A stretch of DNA of 64,000 bases from Planctomycetota bacterium (lineage in GTDB: Bacteria > Planctomycetota > Phycisphaerae > UBA1845 > UTPLA1). Where the stretch lies: assembly GCA_015654675.1 (NCBI GenBank), contig JAATGM010000055.1, forward strand, positions 142,305 through 206,304. The letters run 5' to 3'. Below the pieces are notes generated by a model. The model was not told the DNA's origin, searched no databases, and saw only the letters and a list, made by a program, of their open reading frames with translations. The stretch's first letter is position 1. Each line of letters opens with the position of its first letter. Below, in pieces: positions 635-24,400 of the stretch. The position numbers and the translations under genes were made by a program.

Positions 635-686
635 GATCTTTCTCGATGAATCGGCCGGGTAACCCGGCCGCGATCTCATTCCTGAA

Positions 687-1646
687 CTACTGAACCGGAT
701 CGTGGATGGGCGTGAAGCCCGGCGGTGGACCTACAACGGTCCAGACGGCCTTGTTTTGAGCGGGATTCGGATTGAAGACGCGGTCGAGCACCTGGATGCT
801 GATGCTTCCACCGGCGACGAACTGGAAAAGTTGCGCGGTGCTATCCGCATTGCTTGGATTGGAAAGACGCCATTCGGGCCGGTTGCCCAAATTTACGTTG
901 CAAATTGTTCCCTGGGTGCGTGCCGCAGTGATGTGGTCAATCAACACGCCCAGCGTATTCGTGTAATTCATGCCGGACTGGGTGCAAGGGTCGTTGCCCT
1001 GGCAACTGAAGTTTACGTCGCTATTCCCCAGCACAATAACTTCCGGCAGAGGAATGGCGGTAACGCCGTTGAGCGGGGCCGGAGCGGCTGGTGCACCTGA
1101 TGGGGTACCGCTGGTATTCGGCGGAATAATAATCGGCTGGTTAAAGCTGTCTCGTCCAAAGCTGACGGCCAGCAGCTCATTGCCGCCCTTGAAGCCATTG
1201 GCGGAGGAGGGCGTCAGAATGTCACATCCCAGCGTGATCGAGTTTCCGACCGAGACATAGCCGGCGGCTGTGTAGGTCGGGCGATCGGCCTCGCACATGA
1301 AACCACCTTGGCCGGCTGAGATCAGGAAGGTGATCGAATAGGTCAGGTTTTGCAGGCTATTGTTGCGGAGAATGAAGAATTCTGGCTTGCGATTGGTTGG
1401 AAGATCGCAGGTTGTGTTAATGGTCGGATTCACTGGCTGCGTGGATTGAGTGGTGGTCGGAGTGCGCGGGATTCCACCGCGCGGAAATGTCTGCACGCTC
1501 GGATCGCTGACCGCTTGATTGAGCAGCTGCAATGTGCTCAGCGGGCTAGTGCCGCCACAGCCTGAACCGGTGGACGCGATCATCCATGCGATCGCGAGAA
1601 TTGACGCCGAACCCCAGAGAAACGCCGCACGTTGACTGGTCATCAT
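687..1646 (-). CDS. Putative secreted lipoprotein of unknown function
   Basis: 319 aa from an ATG at 1646, chosen because GGAG lies 5 nt upstream; the open frame extends to 2042 but that extension looks non-coding (Arg/Ser-rich, no signal). Residues 1-35 form a signal peptide with a lipobox-like GSGC, followed by GGTSPLS, the same sequence context as in the partial gene at 1-634. The mature part is rich in Thr, Pro and Asn and carries several cysteines (TTCDLP, GGFMCEAD, LGCDILT, FSCQGNDPC, TICNVN), probably disulfide-bonded outside the cytoplasm. A short proline/alanine linker sits in the middle. Tandem paralogy with the upstream gene indicates local duplication. No enzyme motif is visible. 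Confidence 0.78.
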   Translation of the reverse strand: MMTSQRAAFLWGSASILAIAWMIASTGSGCGGTSPLSTLQLLNQAVSDPSVQTFPRGGIPRTPTTTQSTQPVNPTINTTCDLPTNRKPEFFILRNNSLQNLTYSITFLISAGQGGFMCEADRPTYTAAGYVSVGNSITLGCDILTPSSANGFKGGNELLAVSFGRDSFNQPIIIPPNTSGTPSGAPAAPAPLNGVTAIPLPEVIVLGNSDVNFSCQGNDPCTQSGMNYTNTLGVLIDHITAARTQGTICNVNLGNRPEWRLSNPSNADSTAQLFQFVAGGSISIQVLDRVFNPNPAQNKAVWTVVGPPPGFTPIHDPVQ

Positions 1647-2030
1647 TGCCGCTCCACGTCTACGAGAACCCATGCAATCCGAGCGAGGCGGGCCGCAACT
1701 TCGCAACCGGATACCGCGAGGACCGGGTGTAAGTCGCCCAAGGATTCTGACGGGCGGGAGACCGCAGAATACGGGGGTCGGCAGTGAGGCGCTGTTCCAA
1801 CCTCCGGAACACCCTATTCTACCGAATTTACTCCTTTGGGACAACCGGGCCTTTGTTTTGGTCCGGCTGTCGTCATTCTCGGACCCGCGCCGACGGATTT
1901 GGCGCGCATTTTCGAAGTTTCCTGAATGCGATATCGCCATTGGGCGGCCCCCTCCGTGCGGGAAAAATGGGAAGCTCGAACGGCCGTCGGGCTGAATATG
2001 CAGGTTGGCGAGCCACAGCGGCGCAAGTGC

Positions 2031-6803: not shown

Positions 6804-6843
6804 ACGCTCGACCGAGGTCGCCGAAAGCGGGGATCAATCTGAT

Positions 6844-6930
6844 CGGAGAGGGAGGGATTCGAACCCCCGGACGCCTTTCGACGTCAACGGTTTTCAAAAC
6901 CGTCGCCTTCAGCCGCTCGGCCACCTCTCC
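6844..6930 (-). tRNA. tRNA-Ser(TGA)
   Basis: Reading the minus strand, the 7-bp acceptor stem GGAGAGG/CCTCTCC, the D arm (GGCCGAGCGGCTGAAGGC), the anticodon loop with TGA, a long variable arm (GTCGACGTCGAAAGGCGTC region) and the T arm GGTTCGAATCC are all present. The long variable arm and discriminator G are typical of serine tRNAs. CCA is not encoded. A -10-like TAGAAT on the minus strand (6965-6970) lies about 35 nt upstream. Confidence 0.96.
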
Positions 6931-7012
6931 GGTCGGCGGAGCATCGCCCCGTCCGGAGGGCGGCATTCTAGCGGAAGATCTGCCGGCATGCGGATTTTGG
7001 AAACTTGGTCGA

Positions 7013-8506
7013 TTAGTTATTCAGACGAGGCGGCGTGTTGACGTGCAGACTTCCGCCATTGTAAGGCGTACCGCCCCCGGTCGGGCAACCGGTGTAGTTC
7101 ACTTGAATGCCGATCGCAGTGCCTGGGCATTGATCAAGGCAATCGTTGACGCCATCGCCGTCGCTGTCGCGCTGATCGCACGAGCAGCCGAATTCGTCGG
7201 GTGCATGACCGGGGATCGTGAATGGGCAGAGGTCGATACAATCGACCGCGCCATCGTGATCTGAGTCGAGTTGATCGCAGGAGCAGCCGTTTCCGTCGAC
7301 GGACTTGCCGACAGGCGTGCCCGGGCACAAATCCCAGCATTCCTTCACGCCGTCTTTGTCGGTGTCGATCTGGTTGCATGCGCAACCATTCGCGTCAACC
7401 GGCCATGCGAACGGTGAATTGGGGCAGTCGTCGGCGCAGTCGTCGATACCGTCGCCATCGCTATCGGTGCTGTCACAGCCGCATCCCTGCTGATTAACTG
7501 CAGTTCCGGGGAGCGTGTCGGGACAGCGGTCGACACAATCGTTTACCCCATCATGGTCACCGTCGAGTTGGTCACAGGCGCAACCGTTGGGTCCGACCGG
7601 CGTCCCGGGCGGCGTGCCCGGGCATTCGTCGCCGCAGTTCGGGACACCGTCGTTGTCATAGTCACCGGGCGGAAAGGACGAGTAGCGCCAAAACGGACCC
7701 GTGTCATCGGCGATGAACAGCTCGCAAGTGGACGGCTTCACCGCGATGCCTTCGGTTTCGAGGCCCGGAACGAAATACTCAGCGATGATCGTGCCGTTCA
7801 GCCGCATGACCGTGACGACGCCATAGGCGTCGTACAGGATGTAGAAAATCTGATTCTGGCGATCGTAATCAAGTCCGGCGATGTCCCAACGCCCCGGCAC
7901 AGGCGAAAATGCACCAAGGAAGGTCACGCTGGTGGAGGTAGCGCTGGTCTTGATGGGTAGACTGAACATGAAAATTCGACCGTCATCCTGGTGTCCGGCG
8001 TAGAACACTCCCCCCTCTGGATGACCCTCGATCGGGACGAAAGTCAGTGCTTCCAATCCGCGGTTCTGCGGGCTCACCATGAAGTTGTTTAAATCAAAGG
8101 TGCGCGTGATTCGGTTCGTGGTGATGTCGAATTCGTAGATTCGATTTGGGGTTTCTGTTCCGATGTAGATGAAATTCGTGGCCGGATCGGCATAGCAGAC
8201 GCCTTCGAGATCGCCCGGGACATTCGTCAGTTGCACACCGGTCCCGTCGGTGTTGAGCATCGCGAGCATGCCGTTGTCATTCACGAGGAATAGCTTGTTG
8301 AGTCGCGGATGCCAGACGACGTCGCTGGGTTCAAATCCAATCGGTAGCCCGAAGCCGATGGGCAGCCCCGGCGTGGGACAGGGAAAGGGCTCTGCCGCGC
8401 GAGCTGTGGTCACGAAAAATATCGCACAGATTGCTAAACCGGTGATATATGATGTGAACGGCAGATGTCGCGACGGGCGACGCGGGCGCATTGGGAGCGG
8501 TTGCAA
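7013..8506 (-). CDS. Secreted beta-propeller protein with thrombospondin type-3 calcium-binding repeats
   Basis: 497 aa (492 if started at the ATG at 8491). A signal peptide ends near ARAAEP. Residues about 45-285 read as a beta-propeller of the SdiA-regulated/phytase-like type, with repeated strands such as FEPSDVVWHP, DLEGVCYAD, RGLEALTFVP and DIAGLDYD. The C-terminal 190 residues hold five repeats of about 40 residues built on DxDxDGxxDCxDxCPxTxxG with paired cysteines, the calcium-binding thrombospondin type-3 pattern used as rigid stalks in secreted proteins. It ends in a short Asn/Pro-rich tail with no further domain. It is preceded by a strong candidate promoter about 250 nt upstream. 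The ligand of the propeller is unknown. Confidence 0.85.
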   Translation of the reverse strand: MQPLPMRPRRPSRHLPFTSYITGLAICAIFFVTTARAAEPFPCPTPGLPIGFGLPIGFEPSDVVWHPRLNKLFLVNDNGMLAMLNTDGTGVQLTNVPGDLEGVCYADPATNFIYIGTETPNRIYEFDITTNRITRTFDLNNFMVSPQNRGLEALTFVPIEGHPEGGVFYAGHQDDGRIFMFSLPIKTSATSTSVTFLGAFSPVPGRWDIAGLDYDRQNQIFYILYDAYGVVTVMRLNGTIIAEYFVPGLETEGIAVKPSTCELFIADDTGPFWRYSSFPPGDYDNDGVPNCGDECPGTPPGTPVGPNGCACDQLDGDHDGVNDCVDRCPDTLPGTAVNQQGCGCDSTDSDGDGIDDCADDCPNSPFAWPVDANGCACNQIDTDKDGVKECWDLCPGTPVGKSVDGNGCSCDQLDSDHDGAVDCIDLCPFTIPGHAPDEFGCSCDQRDSDGDGVNDCLDQCPGTAIGIQVNYTGCPTGGGTPYNGGSLHVNTPPRLNN

Positions 8507-9436: not shown

Positions 9437-12400
9437 ATGAAGCGGATCGCAGGAAAACTGATTGGGTGGATTGCGTGTGGTTTGTCGTGCGCTTCGGCAT
9501 TCGGACAAACCGTTGTCATTAACGAAATTCATTACAATCCGCCCGCGTCCGCCGGGGCCGACGCCGAGTTCATTGAGCTTTACAACGCTGGGGCCTCACC
9601 CGCCAACCTGACGGGCTGGACGATTTCCAACGGCGTCGTCTATTCATTCCCCAGCGGCACGACGATTCCCGTCGGCGGCTACCTCGTCATCGCGAAGAAT
9701 GCAGCGCTGCTTCAAGCGGCGACCGGATTTAGCGGAGCGTTGCAGTGGACGTCGGGGTCGCTTGATAACGGCGGCGAAACGGTTTCGATTTCGAATGCTT
9801 CGGCAGTTATCGTCGACACCGTTTCATACGACGACGTGGCGCCCTGGCCGACCGCGCCGGACGGCGGCGGCAAATCGCTGGAGCTGATTTCGCCGACACT
9901 CGACAACAGTCTGGCATCTTCGTGGGCAGCTTCGCTAGGCAATAACGGGACACCGGGCGCCCAGAACAGCGTATTTGTTTCGGCGCCCGTGTTGGTGGCG
10001 CGGACACCCGTTCCAAAGACGATGGTCGCAGCGCTGCCCAGCGTTTCGGTGACATTTGATCGAGTTGTGACGGGTGTGACCGCCGGTGCTCTGACGGTGA
10101 ACGGCTCAGCGTCAACATCGTTCAGTGGGAGCGGGGCGGGACCTTACCTTTTCAGCGGCTTTGCATCGCCGACTCCGGGATCGGTGACGATCGCGCTGGC
10201 GGGCACAGGCATTCTGGATGGATCGAACGTCGCGTTTGGGGGCGCGGCCTGGACGGTGGCGGTCGGGACCAACATCGTCATCAACGAGTTGAACTATCAC
10301 CCCAATGAACTGGTCTATCCGGCGCAGGAGACCGAGTTCATCGAGCTATACAACGCGGGCGCCAACAACGTCGACATGAGCGGCTGGGAGTTCACGAACG
10401 GAATCACGTACACAATTCCGAACGGGACGACGCTCAATGCCGGCGCCTATTTGGTGGTTGCGGTCAACTCAGCGGCATTGCAGGCGGCGACCGGCTACGC
10501 CGCCGCGCTGCAGTGGACTTCAGGCGGTCTCTCCAACTCCGGCGAAAAAGTCGGAATTGCGGATGCAAGCTTGAATCAGATCGATCTAGTCGATTACGCC
10601 GATTCCGGGGCATGGCCGGGTGCGGCGGATGGCGATGGACCGTCGCTCGAGCTGCGGAATCCGGCATACCCGAATGAGTTTGGCGCGGCTTGGGGCGCAT
10701 CGATTCCGAACAACGGAACGCCCGGCGCGCAGAACAGCATCTTTCAGGCGGCGCTCGGACCGATCATCATCGGCACCGCCCACCTTCCGATTATTCCAGC
10801 CGCTAATCAGGCCGTGACTATTACTGCCACCGTCGTTGACGACTCGCCCAACCCGACGGTGACGCTCTATTACCGGCAGGACCAGGATCCGACGATCGCG
10901 TATTCGTCGACGCCGATGCTTGATGATGGGGCCCACGGCGATGGCGCGGCGGGCGACAAACTCTACGGTGCGGTGGTGCCGGGGCTGGCGGACGGCCAGC
11001 GGCTGGACTTTACGATCCGGGCGGACGACGGCGGAATCGTTTCGGCCGCGCCGAACGGGAACAACACGCTAGTGGCCGGAGAGAATCCGAATCAAACTTA
11101 TCTGTGCAAATTCTCGAACGCGGCATTGTCGAGCGACTTTCCGTCGTATCACCTCATCACAACGCAGCACATCCGAAACCTCCAGACGAATGCGATCGAG
11201 GACGAATTCGATTCGACGTTCGTGCATTGCGACACGGCCGGGAATTGCAAGAATTTCTATAATTCCGGGCAGCACTATCGCGGGGCGAGCAGCTTGAATC
11301 AGCTTCCGCACTCGTACCGGATCGACCTGCCAAACAGTCCCAACTTCGATTCGGAGCTGGGATTCCGGACGACGAAAATCGACCTGTTGTCGCAGGCGAT
11401 CCATAAGCAGTACCTGGGGATGCAATTCTTCCGCGAGGCGTTCGGCGGCCAGATTCCGACGCCGCGGACCCAGTTCGTGCGATTCAACACGAATCCGTTG
11501 AGCGAGGGCGGAACTCAGGATTATGTCTATCACAACATCGAAGTCCTGGATGGGAGCTTCCTTGAGTCGCAGCGCGGCGACGTCACGCCGCTGCGCTGGC
11601 CGGATCGGTGCAGTACGAGTCTGTCGGTATGCGGCTCGGCGGCCGATTGCAGTGGCGTGCAGACGTGCGTGTCGACCGATGATGGCAATCTTTATCGCGG
11701 GCGGAACGATGGAGCTCGGCTCAATTACAAGGGGCCGGACAAGAACGCTTACCGCACTGATGCGAATGGCGCCAACGGCTACCAGAAATACACCAACGAG
11801 GCCGAGGACAACTGGGACGACCTGATCACGCTGAGTTTCGCGCTCGACGCGACCACGACGCCGGATGCCATCTACGAGGCCACGGTCAGCCCGTTAATCG
11901 ACGAAGATGAGTGGGTGAAATGGTTCGCGATTCACATGCTACTGGTGAATCAGGAAGGCGGGATCTATCGCGATACGGGCGATGACTATTTCCTTTACTT
12001 CCAGCGTCAGAATGCGCCGGGCGGCTACAACGCGAAAATGCTGCCATGGGATATGGACTCGACGTTCGGCGGATTCGGCGACACCTACGTTCTCGAATCA
12101 ATCTGGCGAACGACTGTCGCCAGTCCGCGGCGTTTTATTCGATCGAACGAATATGCCGGGCGATTCGTGAAAGCCATCTGCGACATGATGGGAAACGAAT
12201 TCCTGCAGCCGACGATGAACGCGAAGATCGACGCATTGCCGACCGCCGTGGCCGATGCAGCGCGCAAGACGCAGCTCAAGAACTGGGTGTCCGCTCGACG
12301 CGCGTCCATACAATCCGAAATCAAGACGCAGCTCACAATTTCGAACCTGCCGGGCAGTCCATATCGCAACGTCAATTCGGCGCTGACACTGGTCGGGCAA

Positions 12401-15322
12401 CTGAATCAATGCGGCACACGCTATGTGCGAATAAACGGACAGAATGCCGATTTTCTGAGCGTCTTTAGTGCCACGTGGGTGAAGACCATCACGCTGACGC
12501 CAGGGTTGAATTCGATCACGGTTCAGTGCCTGGATTATACGAACACCGAGATCAGCCGAATCGATACGTCAGTTTTCTATGACCCGGCGCCATTGCAGAT
12601 CCTGGTCACCGCACCGTCCCGGATGGTGGACAGCAAGACGCTCACCCTGAAGGCCGAAATCCTGGACGTGAACGGGCGAATTGACTGGCAGACTTGCGCT
12701 ACCCTCGGAACAGTATCTGCAACGCGTGTCTCGGATGGCACTCCGGTCCCGATCTCGGTGACGACATTCGAGACGTTGAACGCCGGAGTTGGCGCAAATG
12801 GTCCCATTACGGACACGCTTCGCTTCTACAACGGGGCTGGCAGCGTCTCGATCACGCTCGATCAGGGCGCTGATACGCCGCCCGGCGACATCAATGTCGT
12901 CGTCACTGTTGGATCGTTGAGCGCATCTAAGATCGTCACAGTGCTGGACGGTGATAATCCAGCGTTGTTTAAGTCCCTGTCCGGCACACTGTCGGGCGCG
13001 GACTTGAGTTGGTCACCGGCCAATGGCGTGATTCGTCTAACCGGCGATGTGGTCGTGGATGCAGGCAATACGCTGACAATCCAGCCGGGAACGCTGATCA
13101 TGGCCGATTCGGGCAGTCCGAGTCAGGGTGTCGCGATCATCGCTCAGAACGGTGGCGTGGTCAGTGCGCTAGGCACACAGACTTCTCCGATATTTTTCTT
13201 CCCGACGGCGGGCCCGTCGGCCATGTCGCTCCCGCAGGCGATCGGCAACAACGATGCGTCGTGGCGCGGTATTCAGCATTCCCAAACTGGGTCGTCGCAG
13301 TATCGATACGTATTTCTGACGGGCGCCGGCAACGGTCCGGCGAGCGGTCTGACGCGGCCGGCAATTGTCAGTGCGTCGAATACGCACGGTGTGACACTCG
13401 ATCGCTGCGTCTTCGCCGATTGCCCGGGTGCCGGTCTGTTCGTGGCGCCGGGGGCGAGCGGAAGTAGTGCGATTCGAAATTCGATGTTTTCGCGGCTGGG
13501 CATCGGCGGGGCCTGGCTCGGTGCCGGTTACTCGGTTGATGTTGAGGACTCGTGGTTCACGCGGATCGGCCGCGCGCCGTCGGCGAATGGTGTGGATGGC
13601 GATGCGCTGATATTCGATCAAGCGGGTGGAACCGCGCACGTGCGACGCTGCCTGTTGACCGACTGCGGCGATGACCTGATCGAGATGTCTAACGGCGCTG
13701 CTGCGACCATCGAAGATAGCATCCTGAGTGATGCGCGCGACACCGCGGTCGTCGCCGACGCGTCGATTACTCAAGCTTTGACCATGACCAACAGTTTGGT
13801 CTTCAACGCACCCGGCGGTGCGCGCTGCAACGGGCGTGCGGCAAACCTGAGTCTTTGCACCATCGGTCAAAATGCGATTCTGGATGGAGCGGGCTGCGGA
13901 AGCACGGCGGTGGACCGTTGCGTGCTATGGCCGAGTAGTCTAAGCACCTGTTGCGGAGCGGTTAACAATTCGATTGTCGGCAACCAGGGCGACCTCGGCT
14001 GCGGCACGGGAAACTCGTCGCAGGACCCGCTCTTCGTGTTGCCGTTTCCGAGTGGATGCAGCTATCAACTGTTGGGGGGATCACCAGCGTTGGCGGCCGG
14101 ACCAGGCGGAACGCGAATCGGCTGGCAAGGGTTCACCGGGCCGCGTCGCGGTGGTTTGATGAGTATTTCACCGGCCGGGCTGGCGGCGCTCCCAGGTTCG
14201 ACTACGTCGCTGGATGTTTTCCTTCAGTTTGCGCTGCGTGTTCGCAGCTACACCACTGTCATCGCCATTACCCGCACGAGTGGAACGGGGAGTGTCAGCG
14301 TGGATTGCCCGGGCGGCGTTTCGATTGCGACCGGGCGCACCGACCATGTGTTCTATGGACTTGGCGGAACGCCCAGCACGAATTGCACGCTGAGGGTGGC
14401 GTCGGACCAGTTGGCGAGCGGATCCGTGGATGTGGGCTCCACTGCGAAATACCTCTCGACGTATATGTTGCACGTCTCTCCGGACGCCGCCGAAGGAAGC
14501 ACTTTCGAGATTCGAGTGGTCGGCTATGGCGGTTCGATCCTGGGTGACTCGGTCGGTGCGGCGGTTGCTTTCGAGGCGGCGCCGCCCACGGTACTCACGA
14601 TTGGCGAATGCCCGACCGCCGACGCGGGGTCCGATCAGCTCGTCTGCTCACCTTCCTCTGTGTCTCTGGGTGGTACAAGTCTGCGAAGTGAGGGCTGCAC
14701 TTGGAGCACGTCGGGGGATGGGTTGTTTGACGATCCAGGAGCGTTTGGCGCGATCTACACGCCGGGGCCAAATGACGCCGCCAGCGGCTTCGTGACCCTG
14801 ACGCTGACTTGCCAGCCGCTCGCACCGTGCGTGACCCCGGCGCAGGACTCGATGCAAGTCTCCTTTGTCCCGCCGCCGGTGCTTGAGGCGGGTGCGGATC
14901 AATCCCTGTGCCATGGTACCGCGGCTCAGGTGTCGGCCAGCGCAATTCATACATCCGGATGCATGTGGCTCACATCCGGCGACGGCGTTTTCGGCGATGC
15001 GAGCCACTTCAGCACGAGCTACACACCGGGAACTTCGGACTCAGGGTCCGGAAATGTTGTATTGACGTTCCAATGCAATGCTGAGGCGCCCTGCCAGGGC
15101 CCGGTAAGCGACACGCTGCATATTCATTGGACGACCGGTTCTTTGACCGGCGACATGAACGCTGATGGAGTCACAAACGGTGACGACATAACGAGTTTCG
15201 TTCGCGCGGTGATCGCACAGTCGACGCAGCCCGCGGACGTGTGTGCGGGTGATTTCTCGCTAAATGGACAGGTATCTGTGGAAGATATCAGCGGTATGAT
15301 AGGTGTATTATTAGGGACATAG
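9437..15322 (+). CDS. Giant secreted CotH-kinase/lamin-tail/beta-helix protein with cohesin-like and dockerin-like domains
   Basis: 1961 aa, signal peptide (residues 1-24). Approximate order: lamin-tail domain 25-165 (VVINEIHYNPP...AEFIELYNAG), SbsA-type Ig-like domain 180-270, second lamin-tail domain 272-430, Ig-like spacer 435-545 (ending in the FTIRADDGG block), CotH kinase-like domain 555-900 with the metal-binding WDMD motif near residue 870, Ig-like spacer, parallel beta-helix region about 1180-1560, cohesin-like domain 1575-1715, two Cys-containing modules 1720-1890, and a C-terminal dockerin-like pair of EF-hand-type loops (DMNADGVTNGDDI, DFSLNGQVSVEDI). CotH family members are secreted or surface atypical kinases; whether this one is active is unknown. 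AGGAGAG precedes the ATG. It lies 8 nt upstream of a paralogue, so the two are probably co-transcribed. Confidence 0.88.
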   Translation: MKRIAGKLIGWIACGLSCASAFGQTVVINEIHYNPPASAGADAEFIELYNAGASPANLTGWTISNGVVYSFPSGTTIPVGGYLVIAKNAALLQAATGFSGALQWTSGSLDNGGETVSISNASAVIVDTVSYDDVAPWPTAPDGGGKSLELISPTLDNSLASSWAASLGNNGTPGAQNSVFVSAPVLVARTPVPKTMVAALPSVSVTFDRVVTGVTAGALTVNGSASTSFSGSGAGPYLFSGFASPTPGSVTIALAGTGILDGSNVAFGGAAWTVAVGTNIVINELNYHPNELVYPAQETEFIELYNAGANNVDMSGWEFTNGITYTIPNGTTLNAGAYLVVAVNSAALQAATGYAAALQWTSGGLSNSGEKVGIADASLNQIDLVDYADSGAWPGAADGDGPSLELRNPAYPNEFGAAWGASIPNNGTPGAQNSIFQAALGPIIIGTAHLPIIPAANQAVTITATVVDDSPNPTVTLYYRQDQDPTIAYSSTPMLDDGAHGDGAAGDKLYGAVVPGLADGQRLDFTIRADDGGIVSAAPNGNNTLVAGENPNQTYLCKFSNAALSSDFPSYHLITTQHIRNLQTNAIEDEFDSTFVHCDTAGNCKNFYNSGQHYRGASSLNQLPHSYRIDLPNSPNFDSELGFRTTKIDLLSQAIHKQYLGMQFFREAFGGQIPTPRTQFVRFNTNPLSEGGTQDYVYHNIEVLDGSFLESQRGDVTPLRWPDRCSTSLSVCGSAADCSGVQTCVSTDDGNLYRGRNDGARLNYKGPDKNAYRTDANGANGYQKYTNEAEDNWDDLITLSFALDATTTPDAIYEATVSPLIDEDEWVKWFAIHMLLVNQEGGIYRDTGDDYFLYFQRQNAPGGYNAKMLPWDMDSTFGGFGDTYVLESIWRTTVASPRRFIRSNEYAGRFVKAICDMMGNEFLQPTMNAKIDALPTAVADAARKTQLKNWVSARRASIQSEIKTQLTISNLPGSPYRNVNSALTLVGQLNQCGTRYVRINGQNADFLSVFSATWVKTITLTPGLNSITVQCLDYTNTEISRIDTSVFYDPAPLQILVTAPSRMVDSKTLTLKAEILDVNGRIDWQTCATLGTVSATRVSDGTPVPISVTTFETLNAGVGANGPITDTLRFYNGAGSVSITLDQGADTPPGDINVVVTVGSLSASKIVTVLDGDNPALFKSLSGTLSGADLSWSPANGVIRLTGDVVVDAGNTLTIQPGTLIMADSGSPSQGVAIIAQNGGVVSALGTQTSPIFFFPTAGPSAMSLPQAIGNNDASWRGIQHSQTGSSQYRYVFLTGAGNGPASGLTRPAIVSASNTHGVTLDRCVFADCPGAGLFVAPGASGSSAIRNSMFSRLGIGGAWLGAGYSVDVEDSWFTRIGRAPSANGVDGDALIFDQAGGTAHVRRCLLTDCGDDLIEMSNGAAATIEDSILSDARDTAVVADASITQALTMTNSLVFNAPGGARCNGRAANLSLCTIGQNAILDGAGCGSTAVDRCVLWPSSLSTCCGAVNNSIVGNQGDLGCGTGNSSQDPLFVLPFPSGCSYQLLGGSPALAAGPGGTRIGWQGFTGPRRGGLMSISPAGLAALPGSTTSLDVFLQFALRVRSYTTVIAITRTSGTGSVSVDCPGGVSIATGRTDHVFYGLGGTPSTNCTLRVASDQLASGSVDVGSTAKYLSTYMLHVSPDAAEGSTFEIRVVGYGGSILGDSVGAAVAFEAAPPTVLTIGECPTADAGSDQLVCSPSSVSLGGTSLRSEGCTWSTSGDGLFDDPGAFGAIYTPGPNDAASGFVTLTLTCQPLAPCVTPAQDSMQVSFVPPPVLEAGADQSLCHGTAAQVSASAIHTSGCMWLTSGDGVFGDASHFSTSYTPGTSDSGSGNVVLTFQCNAEAPCQGPVSDTLHIHWTTGSLTGDMNADGVTNGDDITSFVRAVIAQSTQPADVCAGDFSLNGQVSVEDISGMIGVLLGT

Positions 15323-15330
15323 GGCCATCT

Positions 15331-18300
15331 ATGCGGACGCTGGCGCACATCCCGGCAGGCGCGTGGACCAACTCTCGTTGGGCGCGCATGGGGTGCGCGC
15401 TTATTTTCTCAATCTTAATGGCCGGCCAGGCGAGCGCGGCGGTCGTGATCAACGAGATCATGTACCACGCGGCTTCGGACAATCCAAAGGAAGACTTCAT
15501 CGAACTCCGCAACACGGGTGCCGCGGCGGTCTCGCTCGCCAACTGGAGCATCAACGGCGTCGGCTTCACGTTTGGTGCAGGCGCCTCCATTCCCGCGGGC
15601 GGTTTTATTTTGGTTGCGCAGGACGCGACCCGGTTCAATGCGGTTTACGGCTTTCAGCCGGATTTCACCTTCACCGGAGCCCTCTCAAACTCCGGCGAGA
15701 CGCTGAAGCTGATTGACAGCGGCGGCCTCGTGCAGGACCAGGTGACTTATTCAGATCACGCGCCGTGGCCAACCACGCCGGACGGCAAGGGTCCCTCGCT
15801 CGAATTGATCGACGCAACTCAAAATAATGACGATCCGCGAAACTGGCAGGCATGTACCGCGGTCGCCCACCAAACGGCCAAGGCCGCGAACTCGGTGCAG
15901 GCGACGGGGCTGCCACCCTGGATCTCAAATGTGGCGTTTCCGACCGAGCCGGCGGCCAACACCGCGATCCCGGTAACGGCCCACGTCATCGGCGCTTCGA
16001 GCGTGACGTTGACGTACAAGCTGGACTTCGGATCCGACACGACCATTGCGATGCTCGACGATGGATTGAGCGGCGATGGCGCGGCAGGCGATGGCGTCTA
16101 TGGGGCTACGATCCCGGGGCCGGGCACCGCTTCGATCTTCCGATTCCAGATTCTCGCGACCGGCGCGACCGGCACGATGCGCTATCCGCGGACGGACGAC
16201 ACAACGAATTACGTCGGCGGGATGGTTCCCGACGCGACGCTGACATCCAACCTGCCCAGGTTCCATTGGCTGATCCTGCCAGCGGACTACCAACAGGCAT
16301 TAGCAACCAAATTTACGGACACCGAGTATCCGGCGGTGTTCTTCTACAACGGGACGCTTTACGACAACATGAGGATTCGGGTGCGCGGCGATCGAGCGAG
16401 AAATTTCCCCAAGCTGCATTGGCTCTTCAAGTTTCCGCAGGGGCACGATTTCTCGGCCGCCGGGTTGTATCCCTTGCCCGTCCAAGAAATTGATATGCAG
16501 GGCTGCTACGCGGACAAGTCCTACATGCGTGAGATGCTCTCGTACGAGACCTACCGCGACGCCGGTAGTCCGTCGAGACTGATCAACCCGGTGGCCCTCT
16601 TCCAGAACGGCGCATATTACGGCCTCTACCTGACGATGGAGCCGATGGAAAAGGAATACCTGACGCGCAATGGACTGGACGAAGAAGGCGCCTGGTACAA
16701 GGCGGCCCAGGACTTTCACTATGAGCCGCAGGGCCACCTGCCGCCGGATTATCCAAAACAGAACAGAACCTACGAGGACTACACCGACCTCTACAATCTT
16801 ATTGACAATGTGAACAACCTGAGCGGACAGGCGCGGCGCGACTACTTGTTCGCGAACCTGAACATTCCCGCCGTAATCAACTACCTCGCTGCGACGACGA
16901 TCGTTCACGACAATGATCACATCACCAAGAATTACCTCATGTTCCGCGACTCGGACGGAACGCAGCGATGGATGATTCACGCATACGACAAGGACCTTAC
17001 GTTCGGGCGCAATGCCGTGAACGCAGTGCTCAATGACACGATCTGGGCAAATGTTGATGTGATCCCCGGCCGGCCAAATGTCTCACCCAGCCATCCGCTG
17101 TACGGCGAGCAGGCGCATCAGAAGTACAACTTCTTCTGGAACCATTTGATCGACGCAGTGCATGCCATCCCCGAGTTCAATCTGATGTACTACCGGCGCC
17201 TGCGGACACTCATGGACGATCAATTAGCGCCCGGTCGTTACGAGGCCCGAATTGACACGCTAAGCGCATTGCTGGCAACTGAGGCAGCGCGGGACACGCA
17301 AAAATGGGGCCAGTACGGGACGGCGCAGACCCTCGACCAGGCCACCACCATTCTCAAGAATGATTATCTGGCGGTTCGTCGCCAGCACTTGTTCGTGACG
17401 CATCGCATCCCGGGCGAGATTCCAACCACGCAGTCGTCTGCTCCGCAAATCGTGATCAACGAGATTATGTACAACCCGGCGTCGAACCCCGAACTCGAGT
17501 TCATTGAGTTATTTAATCCCTCGTTTGACGAATCGGTGGACCTGTCGGGCTGGAAGCTCGAAGGAGTAGACCTCACTTTTCCGGGCGGGTCGGTCATTCT
17601 GCCGATGAGCTATGGTCTGGTGGTTCGGAATGACGTCGAATTCCGCGCGGCCTACGGCGGGACATTCCTGGTTCTCGCTCAGTACCCGGGCAAGCTCGAC
17701 GGCGGCGGCGAAAACCTCGTCCTGAAGAATCGAAACGACGTCGTGATCGATTCGGTGAGATACGACGACGACGCGCCCTGGCCAACGACGGCGGACGGCG
17801 GCGGTCCATCCCTAGAGTTAATCGACGTCGCGCAGGACAACGATCGAGCCGTGAACTGGGCTCCGTCGGCTAGCGCGGGCGGAACGCCGGGAATGCCGAA
17901 CTCCACGATCGGGACGACCCTTCCAGTACCCGGCCTGTGGGTGAATGAAGTGTTACCGGTCAACACGAACGGCATCCGCGATGAGCAGAACGAATTTTCG
18001 CCGTGGATCGAAATCTATAATTCCACCGGCTCGCCGATCGACTTGAGCGGCATGCACCTGACCAATCAATACTCCAATCCGACCAAATGGACATTTCCCA
18101 ATGGAACGAGCTTGGCCGGGAATTCGTGGCTGATCGTATGGGCCGACGCCGAACCAGGTGAAGGGCCGCTGCACACCAACTTTGCGTTGAGCGCGGCGGG
18201 TGGGGTGGTCGGACTCTATACGGCCGATGCGCACATCATCGACTACCTGAACTACGATCCGCTTCCGGCAAACGTGTCATTCGGCAAGTTTCCGGATGGA

Positions 18301-20538
18301 ACCAATCCACGGCAGGAATTTGCCGTTCCCTCGCCCGGAGCAATGAACTTCGTTCCACCGGCGCGTTTGATTCTTAATGAATACAACGGCGTCAAGGATG
18401 ACGGCTTCCTCAAGAACGGGGCCTCGGACATTTACTGGGGGCGCGTCCTGGGGAATGGCGGTGACTGGTTCGAGTTGGTGGTCGTCCAGGATCACCTCGA
18501 CATCCGCGGCTGGAAGTTGATCGTCAGCGACAACACCGGTGCGGGCAACCAGACCGTGCAGACGCTGACGCTGACCAACAACGCGCTTTGGGCCGACATG
18601 CGGGCCGGAACGATCATCACCGTTTCGGAGAATCTGGCTGACGATGTCAGTTACGACCCGGGCAATGGCGACTGGTGGATCAATGTGCGGGCGAGCAGCG
18701 CGGGCACGGGGACGTATATCACCGCCGCCAATTTCTCCGTCTCAAACAACTCATGGCAACTGACGATCCGCGACGCGGCTGACGCGCCTGTCTTCGGCCC
18801 GGCCGGCGAGGGTGTGAAGCCCGACACCGGGATCGGCAACGACGAAATACTCCTGTTAGACGAAACCCCGGGCCCGGCGATCACGCCGCGATCCAGCTAC
18901 AAGGACGGCTCGGATAGCACATTTGGAGCGCCGAATATCATCGGCGACGGCGAAACTCAGGACTTCGGAGTCTTGCGCGGGTCCTACTGCGATCCGCCGC
19001 CCGGTTTTTCCGATGCCGGCAGCAACATCGCATCGTGCGGCGGCGGTCCGGTCACTCTGCAGGGTAGTAGCATCGGAGCGATCTCGACAAACTGGGCTTC
19101 GCCTGGCGATGGGGCGTTCGATAACGCATTCTTGCTTCACGCGACGTACACGCCCGGCCCGGCCGACCTCGCCGCCGGATCGGTTGTGCTGACGTTGTTC
19201 GCGAACTCGGCGCCGCCATGTTCGACCGTCGGGTCCGACACGGTCACGATTACATTCACCGCGGCCCCGGTCGCGAATGCTGGAGTCGATCAGACCGTTT
19301 GCACATCCTGCGCCGTCGACGTCACCGGTACTTCGTCGCACAGCGCCGGATGCTTGTGGGCGACCTCGGGGGATGGAATCTTCGACCACGCTGGCGAGCT
19401 AACGGCGACCTATACGCCCGGAGCCGCGGATATTGCCGCTGGCTCGGCGACGCTGACGCTGACCTGTCAGCCCGTCGCACCGTGCGCATCGCCTTCCCAT
19501 GACTCGATGGTGGCCGCGATCATCCGGCCGCCGCAGGTGTCTGCGATTGGCGGACGTTACCTGTCCGTGAAGCCGCCGCCGGACTTCCCGTCCGTAGCAC
19601 TGCGAGTCGAGTCAGCTTCGATGCCCTGCCTGCCGAAATACCTTGACGCGAGCGGACTGCTCACGACCGATCCGGTGTTCGCGACATCGGCGGCCTGGGG
19701 GACGATCGTCGTCAAAGATCGGACGATCGTTCCGGGCACCGCGTATTCGATTAGGGCGGACGTGCGGACAGCCGCTCAGTCTGCGAATCTTTCCTCGCCG
19801 GCGACGGCCACAACCTGGGTCTGGGGCGACGTAAACAACAGCGGAAGTGTGGACATCAGTGACATCGTGTGCTTGCTGGACGGTTTTCAAGGTCAATATC
19901 CGAACTGCACGCTCTATGGCGATGACCTTCGCGGAAACAATCCCGACGGCGTGATCGACGTCATGGACATTGTCGCCGTGCTGGACGCATTCCAGGGTAT
20001 CGCCTATCCGGATGGAGCGCCCTGCAGTTCCGGACTGATGATGGCGCCGCCATCGGGTGGGCCGATGGCCGGACTGATGCTCGTTCCGCGCGTCCGCAGC
20101 GCGGCGCCGGGCGGCGTCGTCCGCGTTGATGTGTTCCTGAGCGGGGCACCGACATTACGCGCCTATCAGCTTGCATTCGCGAGCAGCGGGGGATCGAGCG
20201 GGCGGATGAATGTCGAAACAATCTCGATTGATTCGCAACGACCCGATTACGCATTCGCCGGCCTCGCGGCGCAATCGGCCGTGTCGACGACGGGCGGTAA
20301 GCTGGCAAACGCCACCATGAGCGCCTGGGCCAACTGCTCGGCCAGCCGCTATCTCTGCACCCTGACGCTACGCGCGACAGCCGACAGCAACGGGACGTTT
20401 GTTGTGAAATTGGGCGACAGTCCGGCGACGCTGCTGCTCGACGCGGGCGGAGCGGTGTTGAACCAAACTACCGGATCCGCCAAGATCGCCGTGATTCGCG
20501 CGGTAAACCTCGGCGCAGCGGCGGCTTCTCCGGGCTGA
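15331..20538 (+). CDS. Giant secreted CotH-kinase/lamin-tail protein with dockerin-like and cohesin-like C-terminus
   Basis: 1735 aa, signal peptide ending near QASA. Order: lamin-tail domain about 30-175, Ig-like spacer 180-275 (LDDGLSGDGAAGDGVYG, shared with the upstream protein), CotH kinase-like domain 285-690 with VRGDRARNFPK and the metal-site AYDKDLTFG near residue 550, lamin-tail domains at about 700-855 and 860-1005, a further lamin-tail-like block to 1205, two Cys-containing modules 1215-1400, an Ig/FN3-like stretch, dockerin-like loops 1500-1570 (DVNNSGSVDISDI, DGVIDVMDI), then a cohesin-like domain 1575-1725. It shares domains but not order with the upstream protein: here the cohesin-like domain follows the dockerin. 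No anchor segment was seen at the C-terminus. Confidence 0.88.
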   Translation: MRTLAHIPAGAWTNSRWARMGCALIFSILMAGQASAAVVINEIMYHAASDNPKEDFIELRNTGAAAVSLANWSINGVGFTFGAGASIPAGGFILVAQDATRFNAVYGFQPDFTFTGALSNSGETLKLIDSGGLVQDQVTYSDHAPWPTTPDGKGPSLELIDATQNNDDPRNWQACTAVAHQTAKAANSVQATGLPPWISNVAFPTEPAANTAIPVTAHVIGASSVTLTYKLDFGSDTTIAMLDDGLSGDGAAGDGVYGATIPGPGTASIFRFQILATGATGTMRYPRTDDTTNYVGGMVPDATLTSNLPRFHWLILPADYQQALATKFTDTEYPAVFFYNGTLYDNMRIRVRGDRARNFPKLHWLFKFPQGHDFSAAGLYPLPVQEIDMQGCYADKSYMREMLSYETYRDAGSPSRLINPVALFQNGAYYGLYLTMEPMEKEYLTRNGLDEEGAWYKAAQDFHYEPQGHLPPDYPKQNRTYEDYTDLYNLIDNVNNLSGQARRDYLFANLNIPAVINYLAATTIVHDNDHITKNYLMFRDSDGTQRWMIHAYDKDLTFGRNAVNAVLNDTIWANVDVIPGRPNVSPSHPLYGEQAHQKYNFFWNHLIDAVHAIPEFNLMYYRRLRTLMDDQLAPGRYEARIDTLSALLATEAARDTQKWGQYGTAQTLDQATTILKNDYLAVRRQHLFVTHRIPGEIPTTQSSAPQIVINEIMYNPASNPELEFIELFNPSFDESVDLSGWKLEGVDLTFPGGSVILPMSYGLVVRNDVEFRAAYGGTFLVLAQYPGKLDGGGENLVLKNRNDVVIDSVRYDDDAPWPTTADGGGPSLELIDVAQDNDRAVNWAPSASAGGTPGMPNSTIGTTLPVPGLWVNEVLPVNTNGIRDEQNEFSPWIEIYNSTGSPIDLSGMHLTNQYSNPTKWTFPNGTSLAGNSWLIVWADAEPGEGPLHTNFALSAAGGVVGLYTADAHIIDYLNYDPLPANVSFGKFPDGTNPRQEFAVPSPGAMNFVPPARLILNEYNGVKDDGFLKNGASDIYWGRVLGNGGDWFELVVVQDHLDIRGWKLIVSDNTGAGNQTVQTLTLTNNALWADMRAGTIITVSENLADDVSYDPGNGDWWINVRASSAGTGTYITAANFSVSNNSWQLTIRDAADAPVFGPAGEGVKPDTGIGNDEILLLDETPGPAITPRSSYKDGSDSTFGAPNIIGDGETQDFGVLRGSYCDPPPGFSDAGSNIASCGGGPVTLQGSSIGAISTNWASPGDGAFDNAFLLHATYTPGPADLAAGSVVLTLFANSAPPCSTVGSDTVTITFTAAPVANAGVDQTVCTSCAVDVTGTSSHSAGCLWATSGDGIFDHAGELTATYTPGAADIAAGSATLTLTCQPVAPCASPSHDSMVAAIIRPPQVSAIGGRYLSVKPPPDFPSVALRVESASMPCLPKYLDASGLLTTDPVFATSAAWGTIVVKDRTIVPGTAYSIRADVRTAAQSANLSSPATATTWVWGDVNNSGSVDISDIVCLLDGFQGQYPNCTLYGDDLRGNNPDGVIDVMDIVAVLDAFQGIAYPDGAPCSSGLMMAPPSGGPMAGLMLVPRVRSAAPGGVVRVDVFLSGAPTLRAYQLAFASSGGSSGRMNVETISIDSQRPDYAFAGLAAQSAVSTTGGKLANATMSAWANCSASRYLCTLTLRATADSNGTFVVKLGDSPATLLLDAGGAVLNQTTGSAKIAVIRAVNLGAAAASPG

Positions 20539-20550
20539 TACGCGGCGGAC

Positions 20551-21387
20551 TCATGCCCGCTTGAGTTTTCCAATTGCAGCGGACATTTCGGCGACTCGAC
20601 GCGGATCGGGCGGATTGAACCACGCGCCATCCCTCTTGAGCCACGATCCGACGATGAATCCGTCAGCGTGAGCTGCCAGCGCGGCGAGATTCTGGGGAGT
20701 GGTGCCCGATCCAACCAGAACCGGAAGACGGACCGCCTGGCGTATGGCGGCCACATCCTCCACGGAAGTGGGCTGTCCGGTGGCTGATCCGGTCACGATG
20801 ACGCCCGACGCGCCAAAGAACTGGGCGGCGCGGGCCGTCTCGGCGAGATCGACATCGCTCGTCACGGCATGGGCGGAGTGCTTTTTCTTGATGTCGGCGA
20901 AGACTCCGATTGAGTCAGCGCCGATCTGCTTTCGAAAACGCAGCAGCGGGCCGGCGTCGGCGCGCGGCATAAGGCCCTCGTCGGCGACGTGCGCGAAAAC
21001 GAAGTTCTCTGCGCGAATGAATTCGGCCCCGGATGCCAGGGCGACCGAGAGCGCGGCGCGGTTCGCGCCGGCCAGCACCTGAACGCCGATCGGCAGCGCG
21101 GACGCCGCGCGGACCTGCGTTGCGATCGCCGTCATGGCGGCAACGATTTCCGGCCCGACGCGCTGTCGCAGGTAGGGGGCATCGTGCATGTTCTCGATGA
21201 TGATCGCATTCGCGCCGTGCTCAGTCAGTATTCGCGCTTCATCGGCCGCCTGCCGGGCGATCTCGGCGACCGATTGCGTCGCGCGAGGCGTGCCGGGCAG
21301 GGATTGCACGTGAATCATGGCGATGAAGGCGGGCCTCGGGCAGGACTGCAGCCAGGCAGGAGTCGGTGGCATGGGGCCGCTGGACAT
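20551..21387 (-). CDS. BtpA/SgcQ-family TIM-barrel protein
   Basis: 278 aa. Reads as a member of the BtpA family: FIAMIHVQSLPGTP near the N-terminus, ANAIIIENMHDAPY, GVQVLAGANRAAL, FIRAENFVFAHVADEG, VFADIKKKHSAH, GVIVTGSATG and PVLVGSGTTPQNL, consistent with an eight-strand barrel and a phosphate-binding GSGTT loop. Cyanobacterial BtpA affects photosystem I stability; members in non-phototrophs are of unknown function, possibly aldolase-like. ATG at 21387 was chosen because it fits the usual short N-terminus and lies next to a candidate promoter; the frame stays open to 21435. It is divergent from ccsBA and convergent with the CotH operon (12 nt between stops). Confidence 0.85.
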   Translation of the reverse strand: MSSGPMPPTPAWLQSCPRPAFIAMIHVQSLPGTPRATQSVAEIARQAADEARILTEHGANAIIIENMHDAPYLRQRVGPEIVAAMTAIATQVRAASALPIGVQVLAGANRAALSVALASGAEFIRAENFVFAHVADEGLMPRADAGPLLRFRKQIGADSIGVFADIKKKHSAHAVTSDVDLAETARAAQFFGASGVIVTGSATGQPTSVEDVAAIRQAVRLPVLVGSGTTPQNLAALAAHADGFIVGSWLKRDGAWFNPPDPRRVAEMSAAIGKLKRA

Positions 21388-21394
21388 GACCGAC

Positions 21395-21423
21395 AATATC
21401 GGCGGAACGCACGCGTTTGTCAT
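21395..21423 (-). promoter_or_regulatory. Candidate promoter of the BtpA-like gene
   Basis: Minus strand: ATGACA (21418-21423), 17-nt spacer, GATATT (21395-21400). The predicted start of transcription coincides with the ATG at 21387, which has no Shine-Dalgarno sequence, so the mRNA would be leaderless. Confidence 0.35.
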
Positions 21424-21454
21424 TCCGGTGGGCATGCGAAAAGCGCCAAAGGGC

Positions 21455-21460
21455 TATAAT
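21455..21460 (+). promoter_or_regulatory. -10 element upstream of ccsBA
   Basis: A perfect TATAAT ends 9 nt before the ATG at 21470. No convincing -35 element is seen at 16-18 nt. If used, the transcript would have a leader of only about 2-3 nt. Confidence 0.4.
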
Positions 21461-21469
21461 CTAAGACCT

Positions 21470-24400
21470 ATGAACTCTTTGAGCGCCCTGCGTTCCCGAC
21501 GCGGTCCCCTGGGCGGATTTATTCGAATCATTTCAAGCATCTGGCTCGGCATCGGCCTGCTGGCGGCCATCATCGTTTATAGCTCGGTGGGCTCGGCTGT
21601 CCCACCGGTTCGGCAGTTCTTTGAGCTGACCGAGTTCGAGTACTTCAATCACTGGGTTTTCGTGACGCTGATCGGCATGTTCTGCGTGGCGCTCACGGCG
21701 GCGACGGTGTTTCGAATCGCCTTCAACCGCATCAACCTCGGCGTGATCACTGTCCACGCGGGGTTGCTCACTCTGGCGCTGGGTTGCGTGCTCTACTTTG
21801 GTCGAAAGATCGAGGGCGACGTGCTTCTCTTCAATCCGCGCGTCGAAATTCTTTCAGTCAAGCGATTGCAAAGCGGCGGTGACGATCCCGTTGTTGGACG
21901 CGTCGTCGCGGCGGAGGGACGGAGTTGGGAGGCCAACATGCCCGCGCTGGGCGGGCGGTATCGAGTCGAGGTCGAGTCTGTTGCCCAGCAGGGGCTGGCG
22001 ACGGCCGGCGAAGTAAAATTGCGGGCCATCACGCCCGACGCTCCTAATGGCCGCGAGCTGGTGTTGCGGCAGGACACGCCCCGCGATGCAACCGTCCGGC
22101 TGGACGACCGGATTGTGCTGTCGCTCAAGCCCACGAACATCGCCGATCGATTCTATGACAACAACACGCCGGCGTTGCTCATGCGGCGGGGGAATGAAAG
22201 TGAACTGTTCTCGCTTCAGGGGTTGCCGCTCTACGGCGAGCGCTTTGTGTCTGGCGTGGAGGAGGTTCGCGATACGGATGGCGCGGGCGTGCGTTCCGCG
22301 GGCCTGAAGCCGATTCCCGTCATCGACCGTTGGTCCATGCCGCTTGAAATCGGTCCGGCCGACGGCGTCAGTCTGGCCGATTGGCCGTTTCGAATCGAGA
22401 TCGACGGCTACCTGCCCTATGCGACGCTTCAGCGGACCGCGACGACGGGCGGCACGGAATTGAATCCGATGGCGCGCGTCGAGGTGGCCTCCGGCGGCCA
22501 GAGTCGCGGGGACTGGCTCTTCGCGAGTGTTCCTCGGGACTCTCGTTTTTCGATACCCGGCATGGCCACGGTCGAGTTCGCCTGGCTCGGAGACGATGGG
22601 AAAATTCCGGAAGAGTGGACGCGCACCGTGGCCGGAAGGCATGTGCTCGATGTCTGGGTTAAGGACAAAGGCGTCCGCCGGCAATTCGACGTCCAACCCG
22701 GGCAGTCGATCGAAATCGAAGGCACACCATACAAATTAACGATTGAGGATATTCAGGACGATTGGCCGCTGGTGACGGCGGCGGTCGCGGGGGCCAGGTC
22801 GCCGGTTGCGCGGGTGCTGGTGCGATCGGGCGGTCAATCGTTTCACCGAAGCGTCCTGCAGCGGTTTCCGCAGTTCAACCAGGATCGCAACGACGAAGGG
22901 AAAAAGCTCTCCGATCGGGGTCTTGTCGACGAAAACATCGAATTGCGCTACACCGACGCATCGATTCCAAGCGCGGTGATTGTCGCGGGCGACCATTTGT
23001 CGCCGGTTGCGGTGGTGACTGCCGCGGGCGGCAAGCGATCGGTTACCGCGATGAAGATTGGCGATCCACTCGCGCTGGGTGGCGACGTGAAGCTCACGCT
23101 CGCGGAATTGATTCAACGACCGCGCTTTGAGGAGAGGCCGGCCGTGATTCCCGTGGAGCAGCGTCGGCCGCAACCGGGCCGGCAGGCCTCGCTGATCAGG
23201 CTACACGTCGTATCGCAAAAGGGAGATTGGCAGACTCACGTGTGGCTCCCGTTCGAATCGTACAACGACATGCCGACTGAATCGGCGCCGCACTGGACCA
23301 GCGTGGCGGTCCCCAATGTAGGTCGGGTCGAATTTATTTATGGAAGATTGCCGCGGCTGCTGCCCGGCCGCGTCGCCCTCCGAGAGATGGAAGTGCAGTT
23401 CTATCCGGGCGGCACTCGACCGAGCGAATGGAAGAGCCACATTCGCTGGGAAGACCCGGTGACGCATCGCGTGAGCGAAGGCGTCGCCTATTTGAACAAC
23501 ACGGCAAAAATTGGACCGTGGACGCTGTTTCAATCCGGCGAGGCGCCCGATCATGAGAGCTACACAATTCTCGGCGTCGGCAATCGTGATGGAGTATTGA
23601 CGATGTTGCTGGGTTGCGTCCTGATTACGTTGGGCATGATGTACGCGTTCTACGTGAAGCCGATCCTCAAGCGGCGGTTGGCGAATCGGTTGTCTTTGGA
23701 GGCACAGGCGCGTAAGTCGATGGCCTCGACCGCGCCCGTCGCGGGGCGTTCGCTTACGTCGGCGATGGTTGCCGGGGCAATCTTTTTTGCCGCGTCGCTC
23801 ATCGGCGCTCCACCTGTTCGGGCAGCCGACCCCATCCCGACTGATCCGACCGGCGGCCTCCGCGCCATGCAGGATCAGATTCACCTTGATCGACTCCGCA
23901 CGCTGATCGTTCAGCACAATTCTCGCTATCAGACAATCGAAGCGTGGGCGCGGGATGTGATGTCGACCGTGCATGGCAGAGATCAGATGCTCGGCCTCGA
24001 CCCGGTGGTCGGGGCGCTGGAGCTGATGTTCAATCGGTCGGCTTACGACGACCAGCCGGTGATCTACGTCAAGGACCTGGGCGTGCGCCGACAGATCACC
24101 AGCTATCCCATTCACGTGCCGAAGGATGAGGCCCGGCGAATTCGAAGCACCGGCCTGGTGAGCTCCCAATTTCTGGCCGAGCCGGAAGTAGGCCGCACGC
24201 TCGATGAGTTGTCCTCGAAGATGACGATGCGCCGCGCGATGGACCGCCTCAACAGTGCGATGTCCTATTACGGTTCGGTCCTCGGTTTGCTACGCGTGGT
24301 GCCAAGCCCGACGGGACGCTACGACAGCCCATGGCAAACGATCGACAAGTTGCTCGCCAACCTCGGCGGCGTTCCGGAGGCGGCCGCGGCAAACATCGCG

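Follow-up and report, generated by a model that had tools for sequence, protein, structure and literature searches.

Two adjacent giant CotH proteins of a planctomycete as possible parts of a cohesin-dockerin network

Background

Two very large proteins with CotH kinase-like and lamin-tail domains (LTDs) are encoded side by side in the genome of a planctomycete, and the question raised by this locus is whether they act together, and if so, what would hold them to each other. An earlier note on the same DNA had suggested that they could form a surface adhesion or kinase complex. We examined the domains of both proteins, their CotH active sites, the conservation of the pair across genomes of the host class, and the neighboring genes.

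Locus and domain layout of the 2 proteins

The window, the whole stretch of 64,000 nucleotides analyzed here, corresponds to C45:142305-206304 of the host genome G000 (4.93 Mb, 62 contigs). It encodes protein A and protein B (Table 1), with 8 nt between the stop of A and the start of B as read from the sequence, and the open reading frames agree in size and position with what the earlier note had described. Both proteins start with a signal-peptide-like stretch, as judged by eye. Pfam identified CotH and LTD in both proteins and a beta-helix in A, with the LTD matches totaling 133 bits over 2 stretches in A and 170 bits over 3 stretches in B, and 4 CotH matches were found in the G000 genome as a whole. 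Our own profiles gave the order LTD, Ig-like, LTD, linker, CotH, beta-helix, cohesin-fold, 2 PKD-like, and dockerin-like for A, and LTD, linker, CotH, LTD, LTD, conserved region, 2 PKD-like, conserved pre-dockerin piece, dockerin-like, and cohesin-fold for B, where PKD-like, pre-dockerin, and linker are our own names for segments where no Pfam match exceeded the cut-off. Pfam and own profiles thus bear out the description of shared LTD, CotH, Cys-module, and dockerin-like domains in differing order, with a beta-helix in 1 member and a second and third LTD in the other. The Cys module itself turned out to be a repeated PKD-like module, matched by Pfam PKD_4 below its cut-off only.

Table 1. Genes and protein modules of the A/B locus, with positions in the window
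Feature	Position (nt)	Residues (aa)	Strand	Basis and remarks
Propeller-like protein with thrombospondin type 3 repeats	7013-8506		-	Pfam TSP_3 33 bits, Phytase-like 29.6 bits, both over cut-off
Protein A	9437-15322		+	ORF, 1961 aa; A-type CotH; predicted secreted
A lamin-tail domain 1	9497-9841	21-135	+	Pfam and own profile
A lamin-tail domain 2	10259-10606	275-390	+	Own profile; Pfam counts 2 LTD stretches
A CotH kinase-like domain	11243-12301	603-955	+	Pfam (613-952) and own profile
A beta-helix region	12569-14143	1045-1569	+	Pfam Beta_helix 37.5 bits at 1311-1470; own profile
A cohesin-fold module	14183-14602	1583-1722	+	Predicted model; invisible to Pfam
A 2 PKD-like Cys modules	14618-15127	1728-1897	+	Own profile
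A dockerin-like module	15146-15313	1904-1959	+	Own profile
Protein B	15331-20538		+	ORF, 1735 aa; B-type CotH; predicted secreted
B lamin-tail domain 1	15433-15759	35-143	+	Pfam and own profile
B CotH domain	16366-17400	346-690	+	Pfam (349-686); structure 5jd9, E 2e-8
B lamin-tail domain 2	17440-17772	704-814	+	Own profile
B lamin-tail domain 3	17929-18303	867-991	+	Own profile
B conserved region without recognized fold	18346-18978	1006-1216	+	No Pfam match; kept in 9 of 9 near-full B homologues, the window's B counted
B 2 PKD-like Cys modules	19009-19515	1227-1395	+	Own profile
B dockerin-like module	19807-20037	1493-1569	+	NCBIfam dockerin_GC 20.7 bits at 1500-1555, below cut-off
B cohesin-fold module	20098-20481	1590-1717	+	Predicted model; invisible to Pfam

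The beta-helix region of A recurs in shorter proteins of 663-838 aa that are 44-54% identical to it (L060, L061, and L059, on C22, C36, and C48). Downstream of the pair, positions 21317-25660 encode a 1447-aa protein whose C-terminal domain is of the CcsB type (cytochrome c assembly); ResB was matched weakly. A recent horizontal arrival of the pair was also considered; G+C content gives no sign of it (A 0.601, B 0.609, and 0.589-0.656 for 7 further window genes), and the 3' end of the adjoining tRNA-Ser gene (6843-6931) is nowhere repeated exactly over at least 14 nt within the window.

Active sites of the 2 CotH domains

The Pfam CotH profile (PF08757, cut-off 23.8) scored 76.4 bits in A and 176.9 bits in B. 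Passages of PMC7821199 describe the inactivation of Bacillus subtilis CotH by substitution of D228 or D251, and we equated these residues by spacing with 2 Asp residues of the structure fragment 5jd9 that lie 23 residues apart, with an Asn 5 after the first. Aligned with this fragment, B keeps the catalytic Asp, the Asn, and the metal Asp (D529, N534, and D553), and A has E840 and D850 at the catalytic-Asp and Asn positions and keeps the metal Asp (D872).

This alteration recurs in homologues, as Glu, GDD, and DxD were present in all 29 distinct A-type loops, 14 of which came from a scan patterned on these very residues, leaving an unbiased count of 15 of 15. The Asp...Asn plus DxD pattern was found in 26 of 30 distinct B-type sequences, with 1 of the other 4 being truncated. 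A phmmer search with the CotH domain of A against the PDB returned no match. By its sequence, A is a member of a CotH subfamily with an altered catalytic loop, in which Glu and Asp stand for Asp and Asn.

The combination of CotH with LTDs had been ascribed to cellulosome-like systems, and rightly so, with parts of PMC6083626 describing it for the Clostridium thermocellum cellulosomal dockerin protein Cthe_0239 (LTD, LTD, Fn3, CotH). The same publication speaks against calling the architecture unusual, as do 17 of 17 database loci (including L139, which is the G015 locus), where an LTD precedes the CotH domain of the A type. A-type CotH after an LTD was also identified in loci labeled Verrucomicrobia, Sumerlaeota, Myxococcota, and Acidobacteria.

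Cohesin-fold and dockerin-like modules

Cohesins and dockerins are familiar chiefly from cellulosomes, whose parts they join. The segment 1575-1745 of A had no meaningful Pfam match and 1575-1735 of B had none, and the Pfam cohesin profile (PF00963) did not match either segment at E <= 5. Predicted models of the 2 modules reached a pLDDT of 74.1 for A (7 rows) and 92.3 for B (10 rows, A-type rows included). In comparison with solved structures, the best match of the A model was the cohesin 5n5p (Z 13.1, rmsd 2.4 over 126 residues) and that of the B model 4uyq (Z 15.5, rmsd 2.3 over 130 residues). Cohesins, or structures containing one, fill rows 1-46 of this comparison for A, where row 47 is an entry titled merely 'protein-protein interaction module', and rows 1-48 for B, and the first non-cohesin domain is 9ifr at Z 9.4 (A) and 11.2 (B). 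Foldseek likewise placed cohesins on top for both models, with E 6e-8 and TM about 0.64 for B and, for the A model of middling confidence, a modest match at E 2e-4 and TM about 0.5. By these predicted models, A and B each hold a cohesin-fold module near the C-terminus.

Profile alignment relates the 2 modules to one another (hhalign 98%), and both align with parts of proteins encoded in a second cluster of the same genome (contig C58), where a 391-aa protein has a Pfam cohesin over cut-off beside a module of the A/B sort. In this cluster, a cohesin of a type other than that of A and B scores 29.9 bits, over the Pfam cut-off. Profile comparison found no relation between the A module and the Pfam-type cohesins of the cluster, and the profile of the A module had no match among PDB sequences, so that the cohesin assignment rests on the fold. 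A profile made from the cluster's Pfam-type cohesins reached solved cohesins with an E of about 1e-3. For the small cluster cohesin (A4), a sequence search of the PDB found nothing, and profile comparison linked it to these Pfam-type cohesins at 78%. Cohesin counts based on Pfam can therefore miss divergent members.

The single dockerin-like stretches of A and B fall below Pfam and NCBIfam cut-offs, with 19.7 and 16.3 bits, respectively, for PF00404 (cut-off 22.9), a cut-off that the dockerin modules of other cluster proteins exceed. A 9-row profile (A5) led by the A module matched solved dockerins at a best E of 6e-6, covering both Ca-binding-like repeats. The B module had weak matches to solved dockerins, at E 0.06 and above, and a better-scoring row was a serine protease. 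With a cohesin-fold and a dockerin-like module in each protein, A and B would each bear both halves of a cohesin-dockerin joint. Neither cohesin-fold module had figured in the earlier note, nor had the linked gene at 7013-8506.

Conservation of the A/B pairing

We searched 298 genomes of the host class with A (residues 1-1570) and B (residues 1-1250) at E <= 1e-60. Near-full A homologues were identified in 6 genomes (G000 twice, G113, G015, G014, G006, and, in pieces, G286), with copy numbers being lower bounds as at most 2 candidates per genome were scored, and identities ranged from 46% to 51% outside G000. Near-full B homologues were identified in 8 genomes, comprising the 6 with A plus G237 and G128, at 52-57% identity outside G000. 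B is therefore present in 6 of 6 genomes with A (Fisher p 3e-11, shared ancestry ignored), of which 4 belong to 1 family and the other 2 to the same order.

In all 4 genomes in which linkage could be tested, A and B share a contig, with the 8-nt gap in G000, 2 genes between them in G014, 5 genes between them in G006, and about 19 kb between them on opposite strands in G113. The A gene of G015 runs off its contig and the contig with B begins 3 kb before that gene; in G286, B sits on a 7.35-kb contig. Conservation of the 2 genes as neighbors, as raised in the earlier note, thus stands at the level of the contig, and the close adjacency is seen in G000 only among the genomes compared. The same note had named 2 findings that would count against its reading, namely, CotH domains lacking the metal-site residues and a pair unique to this contig; the metal Asp is kept in both proteins and homologues of A and B co-occur in 6 of the 298 genomes.

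The connector modules are distributed more narrowly. The A/B-type cohesin profile matched exactly 4 of 17 genomes of the host family, those with A and B. Outside the family, profiles built mostly on family sequences recognized no cohesin or dockerin module in 5 near-full B homologues (G286, G237 with 2, G113, and G128), 1 of which runs off its contig. Among A-type loci elsewhere, L140 carries a dockerin of the B type and L143 matched a cohesin weakly; L142 showed neither module. With the modules not seen in B homologues outside the family and patchy in A-type loci, the connector pair is certain only for the host family.

Neighboring genes and cohesin-dockerin clusters

The propeller-like gene at 7013-8506 adjoins A in the window, and its counterparts adjoin A-type genes in C58, G006, G014, G015, and G113. 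Its product matched a 1179-aa neighbor in G006 (blastp) at E 1e-55 for the repeat part and 3e-21 for the N-terminal part, and the gene probably belongs to the A/B unit. The genes between A and B in G006 and G014 mostly encode proteins that combine cohesin and dockerin modules, and no such protein was recognized among the genes between A and B in G113. Across the clusters of the window, C58, G006, G014, and G015, with truncated genes counted, a cohesin-type and a dockerin-type module occur together in 20 of 33 genes. The pair of modules is absent from the other 13, including the propeller genes, TPR genes, and a G006 phosphatase giant with a dockerin only.

Phosphatase giants of this kind (Metallophos and Pur_ac_phosph_N) follow the A-type gene directly or past 1 TPR gene in C58, G006, and L140, the last labeled Acidobacteria; none was found beside the A-type gene in the window, the examined G014 stretch, L142, or L143. 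A cohesin-dockerin giant with a small cohesin-dockerin neighbor also recurs away from CotH genes. Six of 7 such stretches have both modules in both genes, with several scores low at 7-28 bits, and L160 is without a dockerin match. The profile of the small cohesin matched 12 of 17 family genomes. One more cohesin-dockerin cluster without CotH, as in other family members, was found in G000 at C19:77136-86080 (in L062).

The C58 cluster encodes a paralogue of A (C58:15947-24250) that is 71% identical to A over residues 20-1569 and 72% identical in the search of the class. Its C-terminus is homologous to that of B (52% over B 1371-1735), and the small proteins of the C58 cluster with cohesin and dockerin modules are what the C-terminus of A itself resembles. 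No B-type gene was found in the C58 stretch. Judging from these alignments, the C-termini look swapped between the 2 copies. The B-like end of the paralogue, the likeness of the A end to small C58 proteins, and the missing B gene together make the window pair look as if it had come from the cluster by duplication, shortening, and recombination.

What A and B may form

The explanation that we favor, tentatively and with slightly less than even confidence, is that A and B bring CotH domains into a network built outside the cell from cohesin-dockerin joints and resembling the planctosome, a hypothetical cohesin/dockerin/LTD complex of Nemodlikiaceae described in passages of PMC6461901; we infer both the formation of the network and its phosphorylation. 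The dockerin of 1 protein would plug into the cohesin of another, A, B, and their partners would link into chains or a meshwork, to which additional secreted proteins with a dockerin tag could attach. B, with its standard CotH residues, may phosphorylate neighboring proteins by analogy with CotH in the Bacillus spore coat, which would strengthen or regulate assembly, and the purple-acid-phosphatase giant of the second G000 cluster could remove the phosphate. A, with its altered loop, could work more slowly or catalyze something else, or it could serve chiefly as a structural partner. Joint membership of A and B in such a network is argued for by the cohesin folds, the dockerin profile, the Pfam-recognized cohesin of another type in C58, the confinement of the A/B-type cohesin to those family genomes that have A and B, the co-occurrence of the 2 genes, the 20 of 33 cluster genes with both modules, the phosphatase giants behind some A-type genes, and the catalytic residues of B. 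A general network of this sort is counted against by the B homologues outside the family, in which no connector was seen and which lowered our confidence slightly. Other points against the explanation are the 5 family genomes with the dockerin tag in which none of 3 cohesin profiles matched, the changed catalytic Asp and Asn of A, the 13 cluster genes lacking the module pair, the missing phosphatase giant beside A and B in the window and the examined G014 stretch, and the modest structural match of the A cohesin model. The surface complex suggested in the earlier note is plausible, and its strongest reason is a predicted cohesin together with a dockerin-like module in each protein.

An unlikely elaboration would make A and B a secreted pseudokinase-kinase pair, in which the widespread A-type subfamily, whose Glu...GDD loop would no longer perform the standard chemistry or would perform another, serves to activate or target the B-type kinase, and the cohesin-dockerin joints hold both in a self-assembling extracellular phosphorylation network that includes a phosphatase.

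The strongest rival, a real possibility that we nevertheless consider somewhat doubtful, takes the dockerin-like module as the lineage's general tag for surface sorting or folding and the cohesin fold as a spacer or binding domain, with A and B being separate adhesins or matrix proteins that form no network. The G000 genome has 158 dockerin-like matches at E <= 0.01, some of them partial, against 13 cohesin-like modules (5, 2, and 6 by 3 profiles), and most of the about 150 listed dockerin-like matches stand away from any cohesin found. The dockerin region of A was matched in 17 of 17 family genomes, and the 3 cohesin profiles had no match in 5 of these (G001, G002, G003, G009, and G010, with G003 and G010 being 85% and 75% complete), so the tag must serve something without these cohesins there. 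The B homologues outside the family, in which neither module was recognized, also fit a tag. This rival explains less readily why both module types stand together in most A/B cluster genes and why several cohesin types are maintained side by side. Moreover, few cohesins and many dockerins are what classical cellulosomes have.

A cellulosome-like degrading machine with the CotH proteins as accessory subunits is very unlikely. It could draw on the CotH-dockerin proteins that belong to cellulosomes according to parts of PMC6083626 and PMC12484212, on a CBM96 match in the A homologue of G006, and on a C30 protein with a chitobiase C-terminal-like, noncatalytic domain. However, no catalytic domain of a glycoside hydrolase or peptidase exceeded the Pfam cut-off in the scanned cluster proteins, which did not include the downstream-end giant and part of the homologues, and the sole recognized enzyme beside CotH is the phosphatase. 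It is similarly improbable that CotH, purple-acid-phosphatase-like, and phytase-like propeller proteins form a surface that scavenges organic phosphate by acting on external phosphate esters, as the Metallophos and Pur_ac_phosph_N domains of the C58 cluster and the Phytase-like match of the gene at 7013-8506 would suggest, since that match is weak (29.6 bits, cut-off 27.6) and accompanied by an SdiA-regulated match (21 bits, at cut-off), and the ATP that CotH uses is scarce outside cells.

If the cohesin-dockerin network is real, kinase-like domains carried on plug-and-socket joints would constitute a scaffold that assembles itself in nature and might be switched by phosphorylation.

Comparison with known systems

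In the open-access literature (PMC), we found no paper joining 'CotH kinase' with planctomycetes, and we did not meet hidden cohesins in CotH proteins, a conserved pairing of 2 CotH subfamilies, or A/B-like genes linked to additional genes of the cohesin-dockerin kind and in certain loci to a phosphatase gene. LTD-CotH-dockerin proteins, CotH in cellulosomes, and the planctosome hypothesis are known kinds; the hidden cohesins and the recurring pairing appear new.

The planctosome, as passages of PMC6461901 present it, is likewise from a planctomycete, includes a cohesin-bearing LTD protein as well as an adaptor in which dockerin and cohesin are combined, and shows in those passages no sign of cellulose degradation; clusters of the host family similarly encode cohesin, dockerin, and LTD proteins together. 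Its enzymes are described there as peptidases (M12B and M14) and its anchor as carrying P-domains, whereas CotH and, in some clusters, a phosphatase are found here, and a Pfam scan of cluster proteins recognized no peptidase. A further difference is that Pfam does not see the cohesins in A and B.

Parts of PMC6083626 and PMC12484212 describe CotH-dockerin proteins as cellulosome subunits, with the role of CotH there called unclear in the latter. Cthe_0239 and CseP (passages of PMC6083626) combine LTD, CotH, and dockerin in 1 secreted protein, as do A and B, whereas A and B add a cohesin-fold module and PKD-like repeats, and A a beta-helix, and they are a linked pair from 2 CotH subfamilies. 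The A/B clusters offer a concrete gene set both for the planctosome idea and for the unsettled role of CotH in cellulosomes.

The CotH domain of B aligns with the Bacillus spore-coat kinase (5jd9) and keeps its catalytic and metal Asp. In contrast to that kinase, A and B are giant multidomain proteins, and in A the catalytic Asp and the Asn are replaced by Glu and Asp. Fam20A and Fam20C are a secretory pseudokinase-kinase pair, whose logic, in which a secreted kinase keeps the standard residues and its paralogue has changed them, resembles that of B and A, although activation of B by A is a proposal only. CotH itself is related to Fam20C only distantly, as stated in part of PMC7821199.
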